A stretch of 64,000 bases of DNA from Paenibacillus sp. OV219 (GTDB taxonomy: Bacteria; Bacillota; Bacilli; Paenibacillales; Paenibacillaceae). The notes under the pieces were generated by a model that was not told the origin of the DNA, searched no databases, and saw only the letters and a list, made by a program, of their open reading frames with translations. The stretch lies in the NCBI RefSeq assembly GCF_900110075.1, contig NZ_FOCJ01000003.1, forward strand, positions 248,001 to 312,000, written 5' to 3'. Positions 34,409-41,015 of the stretch are shown piece after piece (the first letter of the stretch is position 1; each line of letters begins with the position of its first letter). The translations under genes and the position numbers were made by a program.

Positions 34409-34490
34409 GCGCTTCAAAGTGATGATAGAATAACTTTGTCGAATATTGTAGAATATGGATATCTGCTCTCGAAAAGAGGTGACATCACGA

Positions 34491-35183
34491 GTGAACTATA
34501 TCGTCTACTTTATATTGGATTGTCTGGACACATTAGCGATTACGTTTGTCATGTTCTCGATTTTTCAGTATCCCATTCGGGAATATTTGAGAGAAATTTT
34601 GATTATTGTCTGCATTCTAGCTGTAACTTCAATTATTGGAAGAGAGCTACTCAGAATATCGCCAGTATACGATTCTCTTAATCATATTGTATTACTCATT
34701 GCTGGTTTGAGGATCTTTATGAAAGTGAAGCTGTATCGTTCCCTTCGTATTGTAGGAGTTGGGATGATTGGGTACTTTGCCATTCAGATATGCATCGTAG
34801 CCATGGTAGCAAAGACAGGTCTTCTCGATTCGTCTATGTTATATCAATCCAATAGTACTGAAGTGAGACTGGTCCAACTTATATCTCAAGCAGTTACTTT
34901 TACAGTTGCTTATTGTATCGTCAAGTTTAATCTAGGTATTGCAAAATATATAAGGCCGCCACATGATTTCTACTTGGATACCCGTATGTCTAAGGAGAAG
35001 CTGTGGGTTTATTTTGGCACTACGGTTGCGCTACTTGTACTATCATTAAGCTTCCATTTACTTGTCGAACGCTTTGAGATCATAGAGGTATTTATCATTG
35101 CGAATATATTGTTCATCATAGTCATCATGTTCACATACAGGAGAGATGCAACAATTGAGCGCAATCGTCTATTTATCGAATAA
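34491..35183 (+). CDS. AgrC-like multi-pass sensor protein without a kinase domain
   Basis: 230-residue membrane protein with six or seven hydrophobic segments (about 3-27, 35-52, 64-80, 86-108, 128-150, 172-193 and 196-216) and a short basic tail Y-R-R-D-A-T-I-E-R-N-R-L-F-I-E. Its size and layout match the N-terminal sensor domain of AgrC-type histidine kinases, but the chain ends exactly where the dimerisation and ATPase domains would begin, and no such domain follows in any frame: agrB starts within its last 40 bases. The GTG at 34491 is chosen because AGAGGTGA lies 8 nt upstream. The region is strikingly AT-rich against its neighbours. It may be a kinase-independent receptor, an immunity or export helper, or an AgrC decayed to its sensor. 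Sequence similarity to AgrC is only by topology. Confidence 0.72.
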   Translation: MNYIVYFILDCLDTLAITFVMFSIFQYPIREYLREILIIVCILAVTSIIGRELLRISPVYDSLNHIVLLIAGLRIFMKVKLYRSLRIVGVGMIGYFAIQICIVAMVAKTGLLDSSMLYQSNSTEVRLVQLISQAVTFTVAYCIVKFNLGIAKYIRPPHDFYLDTRMSKEKLWVYFGTTVALLVLSLSFHLLVERFEIIEVFIIANILFIIVIMFTYRRDATIERNRLFIE

Positions 35184-35640
35184 AGCCGCACAGGTCATAA
35201 AGAATGCTAATCCTGAACAGACGAGCAGTGTCGAGCGGCTTACAGCGCTTCTGGCGCTGCAAGTAAATAATTGTGGTGTGATTGTTGCTACTATGCTTAT
35301 TGGGTTGCTTACGGGGAAGCCGCTGGAAACTGCACTTGGGATAGCTATATTTGTTATAACAAGGCTTCTCACTGGTGGTTTCCATTTTCGCAACCTGGAC
35401 GTTTGTTTTCTTGTTAGTACGGCTGTGTTGGCGGCTATTCCCCACATCGAATTAAGTATAATTGTAATGGTTATTACATCGTTAATATCTATCGTAATAA
35501 CAGCTTTTTTTCCAACTAAGCAAAAAATTCTGCCAATTTGCATAATTATATTGAATGTTTTTCTATCATCACCTATTATTGCATTAGCAATATTTTTCCA
35601 ATCCATTTCTTTGCTACAATTTAGGAGGTTACAGCTATGA
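35146..35640 (+). CDS. AgrB-like accessory gene regulator (peptide-processing membrane protease)
   Basis: 164-residue AgrB-family membrane cysteine protease, which removes the C-terminal part of an AgrD propeptide and forms the ring of the autoinducer. The catalytic region R-L-L-T-G-G-F-H-F-R-N-L-D-V-C-F has His80 and Cys87 in the family spacing. The N-terminal amphipathic part N-P-E-Q-T-S-S-V-E-R-L is also typical, and four to five hydrophobic helices follow. It overlaps the upstream sensor-like gene by 38 bp and its stop codon overlaps the ATG of the AgrD-like peptide (ATGA). AGGAG lies only 2 nt before the ATG, so the TTG at 35155 is an alternative start. The catalytic pair is intact, suggesting an active processor. 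Confidence 0.88.
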   Translation: MQQLSAIVYLSNKAAQVIKNANPEQTSSVERLTALLALQVNNCGVIVATMLIGLLTGKPLETALGIAIFVITRLLTGGFHFRNLDVCFLVSTAVLAAIPHIELSIIVMVITSLISIVITAFFPTKQKILPICIIILNVFLSSPIIALAIFFQSISLLQFRRLQL

Positions 35641-35774
35641 AGAAGGAATTGGCCAAAATCGTCTCAGATGTACTAAACAAGACAGTGAGCAGGACAAATG
35701 ATGTTTCAACATTGAAAGTATTTCTAGGTACAATCGACATTCCAAGCGACAAGAAACAGCCAGAACAAAAGTAG
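35637..35774 (+). CDS. AgrD-like autoinducer propeptide lacking the ring cysteine
   Basis: 45-residue peptide encoded directly after agrB, with its ATG overlapping the agrB stop codon and TAGGAGG 10 nt upstream. It has the AgrD layout: an N-terminal amphipathic basic helix (M-K-K-E-L-A-K-I-V-S-D-V-L-N-K), a hydrophobic signal core S-T-L-K-V-F-L (residues 24-30), and a charged C-terminal recruitment part with I-D-I-P. Aligned on the proline, the core matches S. aureus S-T-C-D-F-I-M with V-P-K-E-L following, so the ring-forming Cys is Leu26 here. Ser24 or Thr25 could form a lactone, as serine does in S. intermedius, or the product may be linear. The assignment is from position and pattern only. 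Confidence 0.72.
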   Translation: MKKELAKIVSDVLNKTVSRTNDVSTLKVFLGTIDIPSDKKQPEQK

Positions 35775-35783
35775 GTGGATCCT

Positions 35784-36203
35784 TTGTCGATCTCGGTATA
35801 CTGCGTGCGGATGGACCCTGTTGATAATCAGGTGGTCTGCAAGAACCTCGATGTTCTGAATGAGGTTTTGTTTATGGGTGTGACCTCAAGACCCGTTAAG
35901 AAGGGGGTCAAGGCGCAGCATCCTCCTGGTATCCCGATGTTCGTTACCGCAGAGGCTACATACTTTCAGCTGCACAGCGTTGAAAGCTACCAGCGAATGC
36001 TCCAGCCGTACGGGTTCGATTTGTTCCACAGCTCTTATCTTGTGAATGTTCCTCTTGTAGACCGGATTGAGATTGGGAGATATGGCAATGACGCCTACTT
36101 CAAAGGCGGAGGTAATATCCATGTTCCTGTATCGAGACCGAAGACCGAGGAATATCGGCAACTTGTCATTAGAGGACCTTTTCAGCCCGAGTTTGGGCTG
36201 TGA
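35784..36203 (+). CDS. LytTR-domain DNA-binding protein without receiver domain
   Basis: 139-residue protein whose C-terminal 95 residues form a LytTR DNA-binding domain: F-Q-L-H-S-V-E-S-Y-Q-R-M-L, the G-F-D-L-F-H-S-S-Y-L-V-N-V core, and I-G-R-Y-G-N-D-A-Y-F-K-G-G with I-H-V-P-V-S-R. AgrA itself is a receiver-LytTR protein; here there is no receiver, only a roughly 40-residue N-terminal segment of unknown fold. The start is taken as TTG 35784 with AGGTGG just upstream; a GTG at 35775 follows the peptide's stop codon directly. As last gene of the agr-like cassette it is the probable output regulator, but how a signal would reach it without phosphorylation is unclear. A terminator overlaps its end. 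Confidence 0.82.
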   Translation: MSISVYCVRMDPVDNQVVCKNLDVLNEVLFMGVTSRPVKKGVKAQHPPGIPMFVTAEATYFQLHSVESYQRMLQPYGFDLFHSSYLVNVPLVDRIEIGRYGNDAYFKGGGNIHVPVSRPKTEEYRQLVIRGPFQPEFGL

Positions 36204-36215
36204 GGGTCTTTTTAT
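36174..36215 (+). terminator. Terminator of the agr-like cassette
   Basis: An inner perfect stem CAGCCC/GGGCTG, an outer GGACC/GGGTC pairing and then TTTTT. The stem begins inside the last codons of the LytTR gene. Confidence 0.82.
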
Positions 36216-39905: not shown

Positions 39906-40988
39906 ATGGCGGAGCAAAAAGATCGCGAAGCGGAAGAGGTCGCTTCGCAGCGGCAAGCAGCAGATAGCACTGGCGTTGAAGGCATGGTAGAACTGGATGC
40001 AGATGGGGTTGGCTTTTCTCTGCTCGTACCCATGACAATCGCAGATGTGAGCTTGAAGGGGACTGCGCTTCTGAAGGAGCGCGGCATTATGGAGCCGCGC
40101 AATAACGCGGAGCTGTTGCTGCTGCACGTGCTCGGGCTATCTCGCACGGAACTGCTGCGTGATTGGCGAGAGCTGTTCCCGCCGCAGCATTACAAGCGGT
40201 GGAGGGAGCTGCTCGCGCGCAAAGCCGCGGGTGAGCCGGTGCAGTATTTGATCGGCGAGCAGTGGTTCTACGGCTTGCCGTTCACCGTGACGTCGGCCGT
40301 GCTTATTCCACGGCCGGAGACCGAGCTGCTCGTCGAGGCCGTGCTCGAGGCCGCTGACAAGCTGTGGCCGCAGGCGCGCGGCGAAGCTAGCGCTGGCGGC
40401 GGGGTTGTCGATGTGCCGACAGTGGTCGACGTCGGCACGGGCAGTGGCGCCATAGGCGTGACGCTGGCTGCGCTGCGCCCGCAGTGGCGCATCTGCGCGT
40501 CCGATCTGTCGCCGGACGCGCTCGCTGTCGCCCGCACGAACGCGGAGCGCCATGCGCGAGCTTCGCAGCGCATGACGTTCGTGCAGGGCGACCTGCTCGG
40601 GCCGTTCGCGATGCCAGCGGCGTCACGGCCCGGCGCAGATGAGCACGCCGAAGCGCAAGCTGGTGGCGTAGCCGGCTTGCGCATCGACGTGCTGGTCTCG
40701 AACCCGCCGTACATCCCGGCGGGAGACATTGCCGGCCTTCAGCCGGAGGTGCGCGATCACGAGCCGCGCCTCGCGCTCGACGGCGGCGAAGACGGCTTGA
40801 CGCCGTATCGGCGCATGGCCGAGCAGCTCGCGGAGCTGTCCGCGATGCCGCGCATCGTCGGCTTTGAGCTTGGCATGGGCCAAGCGGAAGCCGTCGCGGA
40901 GCTGCTTCGCGGCACCGGCGCATGGCGCGAGGTGCGCATCATCAACGACTACGCCGGAATCGGCCGGCATGTGCTGGCAGTGGAATAA
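39906..40988 (+). CDS. prmC: Release factor N5-glutamine methyltransferase PrmC
   Basis: 360-residue SAM-dependent enzyme that methylates the Gln of the G-G-Q motif in RF1 and RF2. The helical release-factor-binding domain (about 50-120, N-N-A-E-L-L-L-L-H-V-L-G) is followed by the Rossmann methyltransferase: I-P-R-P-E-T-E-L-L-V-E, V-D-V-G-T-G-S-G-A-I-G-V-T-L, and the catalytic V-S-N-P-P-Y-I-P near residue 262. It is about 70 residues longer than usual, from a roughly 45-residue acidic N-terminal extension and Ala/Gly-rich insertions near 155-165 and 235-250. The G+C content rises sharply in the second half. Start ATG 39906 follows GGACGATAAGG; initiation further in, near residue 43, would give a normal N-terminus. 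Confidence 0.94.
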   Translation: MAEQKDREAEEVASQRQAADSTGVEGMVELDADGVGFSLLVPMTIADVSLKGTALLKERGIMEPRNNAELLLLHVLGLSRTELLRDWRELFPPQHYKRWRELLARKAAGEPVQYLIGEQWFYGLPFTVTSAVLIPRPETELLVEAVLEAADKLWPQARGEASAGGGVVDVPTVVDVGTGSGAIGVTLAALRPQWRICASDLSPDALAVARTNAERHARASQRMTFVQGDLLGPFAMPAASRPGADEHAEAQAGGVAGLRIDVLVSNPPYIPAGDIAGLQPEVRDHEPRLALDGGEDGLTPYRRMAEQLAELSAMPRIVGFELGMGQAEAVAELLRGTGAWREVRIINDYAGIGRHVLAVE

Positions 40989-41015
40989 TAGCTTAACAAC
41001 TTGTTGAGCGGGTGT

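Follow-up and report, generated by a model that had tools for sequence, protein, structure and literature searches.

A cassette of four genes on the plus strand of the window (the whole 64,000-nucleotide stretch of Paenibacillus sp. OV219 DNA that was analysed) encodes a sensor related to AgrC without a histidine kinase, an AgrB-type peptidase, a short AgrD-like precursor and a LytTR protein without a receiver. We consider it reasonably probable that this is a phosphorelay-free signalling system derived from agr, in which AgrB makes a peptide ring closed at a lysine and the AgrC-like sensor directly controls the LytTR protein. In our model, AgrB would cut the precursor at a predicted site, after the residue six before the conserved proline, and export the peptide, probably closing it to a ring; in the Lys subclass, the side chain of the Lys probably acts as the nucleophile for the ring, which would give cyclo(K-V-F-L), a 16-membered lactam. 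The mature peptide would bind the sensor, the sensor would hold or release the LytTR protein by direct contact (the model accommodates inhibition and activation), and the LytTR protein would then switch its own operon, in a presumed autoregulation, together with other targets. The features of the cassette are as follows.

34409..34490, + strand: intergenic leader and presumed promoter, with TAGAAT twice (34426-34431 and 34449-34454, 23 bp apart)
34491..35183, + strand: sensor, a kinase-less AgrC-like membrane protein of 230 aa; GTG start behind AGAGGTGA; PPHDF motif of the phage-like subclass
35146..35640, + strand: AgrB-type peptidase/exporter; PF04647 at 33.2 bits; His80 and Cys87 intact; loop near residue 120 shortened
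35637..35774, + strand: AgrD-like precursor of 45 aa, without Cys; predicted core K27-V-F-L30 ahead of G31
35715..35726, + strand: codons of the predicted KVFL core, placed by the proline-position rule; Lys is the proposed ring nucleophile
35784..36203, + strand: LytTR protein without receiver, 139 aa; PF04397 at 21.6 bits; profile against the AgrA LytTR domain (4xqj) E 3e-10
36171..36212, + strand: terminator-like hairpin, -26.3 kcal/mol, z -6.2, overlapping the end of the LytTR gene; U-rich tail

Architecture of the cassette

By ORF reading of the window, the four genes (34491-36203) overlap or abut in the order sensor, AgrB, AgrD-like precursor, LytTR protein, with overlaps of 38 bp between sensor and AgrB and 4 bp between AgrB and the precursor, and they presumably form one transcript. 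The original prediction of a real and intact block (kinase-less sensor, AgrB with its His and Cys kept, Cys-less peptide, receiver-less LytTR protein) closed by a terminator agrees with what we found, including a strong hairpin with a U-rich end at 36171-36212; a simple terminator scan did not list this hairpin and returned one site, inside AgrB, no more than in shuffled sequences. For the LytTR gene, we prefer the TTG start at 35784, because AGGTGG precedes it and the P. taihuensis ORF starts at the matching place; the GTG at 35775 is less likely. The TAGAAT pair is a putative element that resembles, by eye, a pair upstream of the P. taihuensis cassette. Repeats in the window leader match at 8 of 10 positions at offset 23, not above shuffles, and a scan of the regions ahead of the window cassette and of 36 others that were fetched found direct repeats no more often than in simple shuffles. 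In a footprint of 20 upstream regions, a promoter-like stretch and a block ahead of it are conserved, and no clear repeat is seen.

The block had also been described as AT-rich. The GC content is 37-42% in windows over 34500-35999, about 49% over the LytTR gene and mostly 46-57% in the flanks, so that the description holds for the sensor, AgrB and AgrD genes and fails for the LytTR gene. We note that elsewhere in the window, at 40000-41000, the GC content is about 65-70%, well above the surroundings.

A lysine class of signal peptides

The AgrD peptides were aligned on the conserved proline (P) of the tail, and positions are counted back from it. Among 112 distinct peptides, 67 have Cys or Ser at or near the position that starts the ring (65 at -10 or -11, and two more with Ser at -9, at the main-class distance from their His); the remaining 45, among them the window's, carry Lys. 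Lys at P-9 is found in 45 of the 47 peptides without Cys/Ser at P-10/-11 (44 by script and that of plasmid pAP1, whose anchor the script had set one proline too late and which was corrected by hand) and in 1 of the 65 with Cys/Ser there. The window peptide has Leu at -10, Lys at -9 and no Cys. The table includes five peptides from kinase-bearing loci (L240-L244), one beside an AgrB without sensor (L202) and that of the G077 remnant; it leaves out 14 other Cys-type peptides of orphan AgrBs and L235, a near-copy of L234. Five spurious ORFs and two peptides without an anchor (orphan-AgrB, Cys-Cys type) were dropped by hand, L102 is counted as Cys/Ser by its Ser at P-11 (the likely ring Ser is nearer), and no peptide was found at L188, L191, L212, L213 and L231. 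L194 has two complete cassettes in tandem, and in the peptide of the first, Cys at P-10 and Lys at P-9 occur together.

Lys and the anchor proline are the only invariants of the Lys class; elsewhere in its 13 columns Lys fills 11 of 528 cells. The Lys is one residue nearer the presumed cleavage site than the Cys/Ser of the other class. We place this site ahead of -5 because of the preference at that residue in both classes (in the Lys class it is H or G in 42 of 44 peptides, in the other class H, N or Y in 62 of 65). The S. aureus AIP is a 16-membered thiolactone, according to the available text of PMC4979651. A ring from Cys/Ser at -10 to residue -6 has 16 members, matching this AIP, and one that the side chain of Lys at -9 closes with residue -6 also has 16 (counted as seven atoms from Lys, six from two residues and three from the last); the lactam idea stems from this equality. 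The KVFL|G core of the window peptide is identical in phage Harrison. An earlier suggestion of S-T-L-K-V-F-L as the core is probably misplaced, since Ser and Thr are unconserved in the class and Lys is kept; K-V-F-L is more likely. A Ser/Thr ring was discarded on the same ground, neither residue being kept among the Lys-class relatives.

Our fuller proposal is that AgrBs of the Lys subclass make macrolactams through the Lys side chain, with a 16-membered ring of four residues replacing the five-residue thiolactone or lactone, and that these are read by a kinase-free pair derived from AgrC and AgrA and common to bacteria, phages and plasmids. We put it forward tentatively, at a little under even chances. 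Somewhat doubtful, though to be taken seriously, is a linear peptide within a relay that is still kinase-free: AgrB would then only cut and export, and the Lys may be kept for recognition or as the site of a second cut. That no Cys or Ser is conserved in the class would suit such a peptide, as would the behaviour of the NCBI AgrD model, which at a cut-off of 19 bits gives both tested Cys/Ser peptides 33-35 bits and misses the four tested Lys peptides (one at 12 bits, three with nothing); the window peptide itself matches no Pfam or NCBIfam family, TIGR04223 included. However, a linear peptide leaves a class whose one invariant besides the anchor proline is a Lys placed for a 16-membered ring, whose presumed cleavage site has surroundings similar to those in the Cys/Ser class, and whose AgrB keeps both catalytic residues. 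The window AgrB lies above its Pfam cut-off (23 bits), and His80 and Cys87 are invariant in 20 of 20 aligned sequences.

The two classes also separate in a joined sensor and AgrB tree (96 rows, two of them without a peptide; quick method), where one branch with support 95 parts 37 Lys from 57 Cys/Ser cassettes. This tree omits most cassettes lacking a read peptide, including the L194 one with Cys and Lys; four duplicate copies of the same AgrB are left out of all trees, and three long branches and the orphan-AgrB group out of the second AgrB tree as well. In trees of AgrB alone, the class needed 3 and 4 changes. Several independent origins of the Lys, which these trees had suggested, were dropped after an AU test on the second AgrB tree did not reject a single Lys clade (p 0.765). 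To judge from the trees, the switch between Lys and Cys/Ser was probably one old event; the evidence on the Lys is its constancy since the switch and not repeated origin.

A sensor without kinase and a regulator without receiver

The window sensor matches no Pfam or NCBIfam family and no kinase domain at E up to 1; across the family of 33 sensors from which our sensor profile was built, only single weak kinase hits were seen, and none of the 33 matches DUF3021 or DUF2154 at E up to 0.1. The profile does match seven full-length AgrC-type kinases of other families in their N-terminal part (at 42-63 bits; the ORFs have 418-453 aa), and all five of these that were checked adjoin AgrB. Comparison of the profile with six AgrC N-termini by hhalign gives 99.2%, E 1.2e-19 over 152 columns, and the window sensor also matches PHROG 15604 (E 4e-30). 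The window LytTR protein falls just under its Pfam cut-off (22.6 bits), but among solved structures its family profile matches AgrA DNA-binding domains best (E 3e-10, over positions 12-109 of the 123 in the profile); it aligns to the LytTR domain of AgrA only and contains little beyond the DNA-binding domain. On these profile comparisons, the sensor is the sensor domain of AgrC without the kinase and the regulator is AgrA without the receiver.

The original prediction had both kinase and receiver absent from the signalling partners, and the genome searches extend this beyond the cassette. The sensor profile finds three copies in the window's genome, whose ORFs are 220-243 aa long and do not continue into a kinase; nine of ten LytTR matches lie in ORFs of 75-161 aa, the tenth (582 aa) having E 1.0, and no receiver-LytTR ORF was found in this search. 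An intact AgrC kinase of the sensor's type and a receiver-LytTR regulator, which might have paired with this AgrBD from elsewhere in the genome, were therefore both missing from these searches. The third sensor copy (L139, G000:C34:212986-213648) has no AgrB or LytTR gene recognised within 1.5 kb. The same genome has a LytTR-only protein that stands alone (L036 3159-3605, G000:C33), shares about 50% identity with the one in the window and has no AgrB match nearby, and an orphan AgrB without sensor or LytTR (L035 3075-3890, G000:C23).

That the sensor controls the LytTR protein directly is the simplest reading of this pair, with a precedent in the LytTR Regulatory Systems. The tree distances of sensor and LytTR protein correlate at 0.55 with AgrB held constant, against 0.28 for AgrB and LytTR with the sensor held constant, and the sensor-LytTR value is the higher in 97% of 300 half-samples, though AgrB lies between the two on the DNA. 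These values come from 79 cassettes, with regulators over 170 aa left out and kinship controlled only by the gene held constant, and we take them as no more than suggestive of direct control. It is improbable that the peptide instead re-enters the cell and binds the LytTR protein itself, the sensor being an importer or immunity protein. Other phage peptide systems (arbitrium) do use intracellular receptors, and the cassette has no kinase; yet the sensor is a homologue of AgrC's sensor domain, and the LytTR protein offers little besides its DNA-binding domain.

Distribution of the cassette

AgrB is present in 193 of 295 genomes of the family and in all 22 of the genus. We examined 110 distinct AgrB neighbourhoods, a non-random sample of all 35 genus listings and 75 others (30 best-match loci and 48 hand-chosen ones, four AgrB genes having been fetched twice and one stretch holding two). 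A kinase-less sensor is found in 87 of these 110, and in 82 sensor and LytTR gene flank AgrB; the three figures were 114, 91 and 86 before four duplicates were removed by hand. Within the genus, the cassette of sensor and LytTR gene occupies 30 of 35 places in 21 of 22 genomes. The window's genome carries a second full cassette (L034), so that it holds one Ser-type and one Lys-type cassette. Regulators are mostly 109-148 aa, with longer ones at L135 (278), L189 (241) and L191 (186). In L135 (4130-4966, minus strand), an AgrD-like start and a LytTR domain share one 278-aa open frame, and at L129 and L210 (P. lycopersici) two extra LytTR-only genes flank the cassette, making three in one place.

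Twenty-three neighbourhoods have no sensor. An AgrC-type kinase lies on the same strand in one of them (L041) and a kinase on the opposite strand in another (L190); in the stretches of the remaining 21, no sensor and no kinase was recognised. Besides L035, AgrB genes without sensor include those of L112, L119, L120 and L127, and a group without sensor and with Cys-type peptides (L042-L056) has several members near what appears, by eye, to be a phosphopantetheinyl transferase gene.

Across a class-wide sample, the sensor domain occurs in 30 of 299 genomes, 14 of them in the host family, 5 in two families with full kinases and 11 in two further families. In all 11 loci of the latter, the sensor is kinase-less and AgrB adjoins it; a LytTR-only gene comes next in 5, a receiver-LytTR of 253 aa in one (L226), and in 5 no LytTR gene was recognised in the stretch. 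L226 (2866-3627), with a kinase-less sensor and AgrBD ahead of the receiver-LytTR (receiver recognised by eye), is a possible intermediate. In a phylum-wide sample of 398 genomes, sensor matches above 50 bits are confined to the host family.

In a few cassettes a kinase gene does lie downstream in the same orientation: immediately behind in L103 and L104, about 850 bp further on in L128, and beyond a second LytTR gene in L217. The window's genome has 33 HATPase_c_5 matches (E up to 10), of which 11 exceed the cut-off. These would be the material for a kinase and receiver borrowed from elsewhere in the genome, which we nevertheless regard as very unlikely: the LytTR protein has no receiver to phosphorylate, the remaining kinase matches near cassettes are on the opposite strand, and the reading was rejected because the window's genome yielded no receiver-LytTR ORF.

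Selection, genomic site and mobile relatives

Compared with P. taihuensis, dN/dS is 0.16 for the sensor, 0.20 for AgrB, 0.16 for AgrD and 0.08 for LytTR, and all four genes look to be under purifying selection. The sensor, AgrB and AgrD are 62-69% identical and the LytTR protein 90%, with dS of 1.2-1.3 (near saturation) for the first three genes and 0.6 for LytTR. Faster divergence of the first three would be expected for a signal and its receptor; replacement by recombination may also account for it. A decaying remnant of a full agr operon, which the AgrD and LytTR genes left alone at the window's site in G077 might suggest, is ruled out for practical purposes by these dN/dS values of 0.08-0.20, and the kinase-less form is the common one in the sample.

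An orthologous MerR gene (at least 69% identity) marks the window's site in 16 genomes of the genus. Nine of these have an empty site, with the oxidoreductase 75-230 bp before MerR and no cassette; in four others the stretch showed no oxidoreductase. The window's genome and P. taihuensis have the full cassette there, and G077 has the most similar neighbouring MerR gene. In P. lycopersici, one of the nine, the site is empty (L262) and the cassette lies elsewhere (L129). The times of gain and loss can be placed only by deduction from this pattern.

The same succession of sensor, AgrB, Lys-type AgrD and LytTR gene recurs in four phages (Davies, Emery, Abouo and Harrison) and in plasmid pAP1 (the searches gave eight phage records, of which these four were examined, leaving out Paisley and RefSeq copies, and five plasmid records, of which pAP1 was examined). 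Their LytTR proteins score above the Pfam cut-off in Harrison, Abouo and pAP1 and below it in Davies and Emery. One scan of viral contigs gave three loci, one of them phage Abouo itself, and two more gave none. The window clade groups with the four phages and pAP1 in the joined tree (16 rows, support 99), and a PPH motif is common to the sensors of this clade and absent from all 54 Cys/Ser sensors checked and from 22 of 26 Lys sensors. An integrase precedes the cassette in Davies and Abouo, and in Harrison a serine recombinase follows at a distance of about 0.6 kb; none is annotated in the examined stretch of Emery. The empty site in nine relatives and the kinship with phage and plasmid cassettes support the acquisition proposed earlier from base composition.

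Relation to known systems

The agr quorum sensing system of Staphylococcus is AgrBDCA. The cassette shares with agr an AgrB with His and Cys, a short precursor with a proline-rich tail, an AgrC-type sensor domain, an AgrA-type LytTR domain and a compact operon, but it has neither a histidine kinase (the sensor is 230 aa) nor a receiver (the 139-aa protein is LytTR-only), and its subclass has Lys instead of the Cys/Ser nucleophile of agr precursors. In the split AgrC loci of other Bacillota (L146, L149, L150 and L153), an AgrC-type sensor domain likewise has its own gene; unlike the cassette, these have a separate kinase gene next to it.

With the LytTR Regulatory Systems (HdrRM, BrsRM), as described in the available text of PMC6193735, the cassette shares a receiver-less LytTR protein beside a non-enzymatic membrane protein. 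It differs from them in having the sensor gene first and the regulator last, the reverse of their order, in an AgrC-like sensor where theirs are DUF3021/DUF2154, and in its own AgrBD peptide; their direct repeats lie just upstream of the promoter, and no clear ones were found at the cassettes. Judged by membrane domain or gene order, the cassette is not a member. In those systems the membrane protein inhibits the regulator; in the cassette the sensor may inhibit or activate it.

In 2014, AgrB, AgrD and kinase-less AgrC-like membrane proteins without HATPase were described in phages Davies, Emery and Abouo (PMC3901668). These phage-borne cassettes share all three with ours; we find in them also a LytTR gene and Lys-type peptides, neither of which the available text of that paper mentions for these phages. 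According to the accessible part of a 2025 review (PMC11945551), AgrA is missing from the phages that have agr homologues, and these may draw on the AgrA of the host; the accessible part of PMC8895600 has nothing on a kinase-less cassette or Lys-type AIPs. Among open PMC papers, a scope that excludes subscription journals and preprints, we found no account of either the four-gene kinase-less cassette or Lys-type AIPs. The original prediction of a candidate for an undescribed system was incomplete: the architecture is common, and kinase-less AgrC-like proteins beside AgrB were already known in three phages. What is new is the Lys class of AgrD peptides.

If our model is correct, a widespread branch of agr signals without phosphorylation, and the cassette would provide a clean test of how a membrane receptor controls a LytTR protein, a question that the LytTR Regulatory Systems also raise. 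The Lys peptides would then add a chemically new type to the bacterial signals; as amides, Lys lactams are probably more stable than thiolactones. The recombinase or integrase genes near the cassette in three of four phages suggest a use in phage decisions. The Ser-type and Lys-type cassettes could be compared in one strain, since the window's genome carries both.
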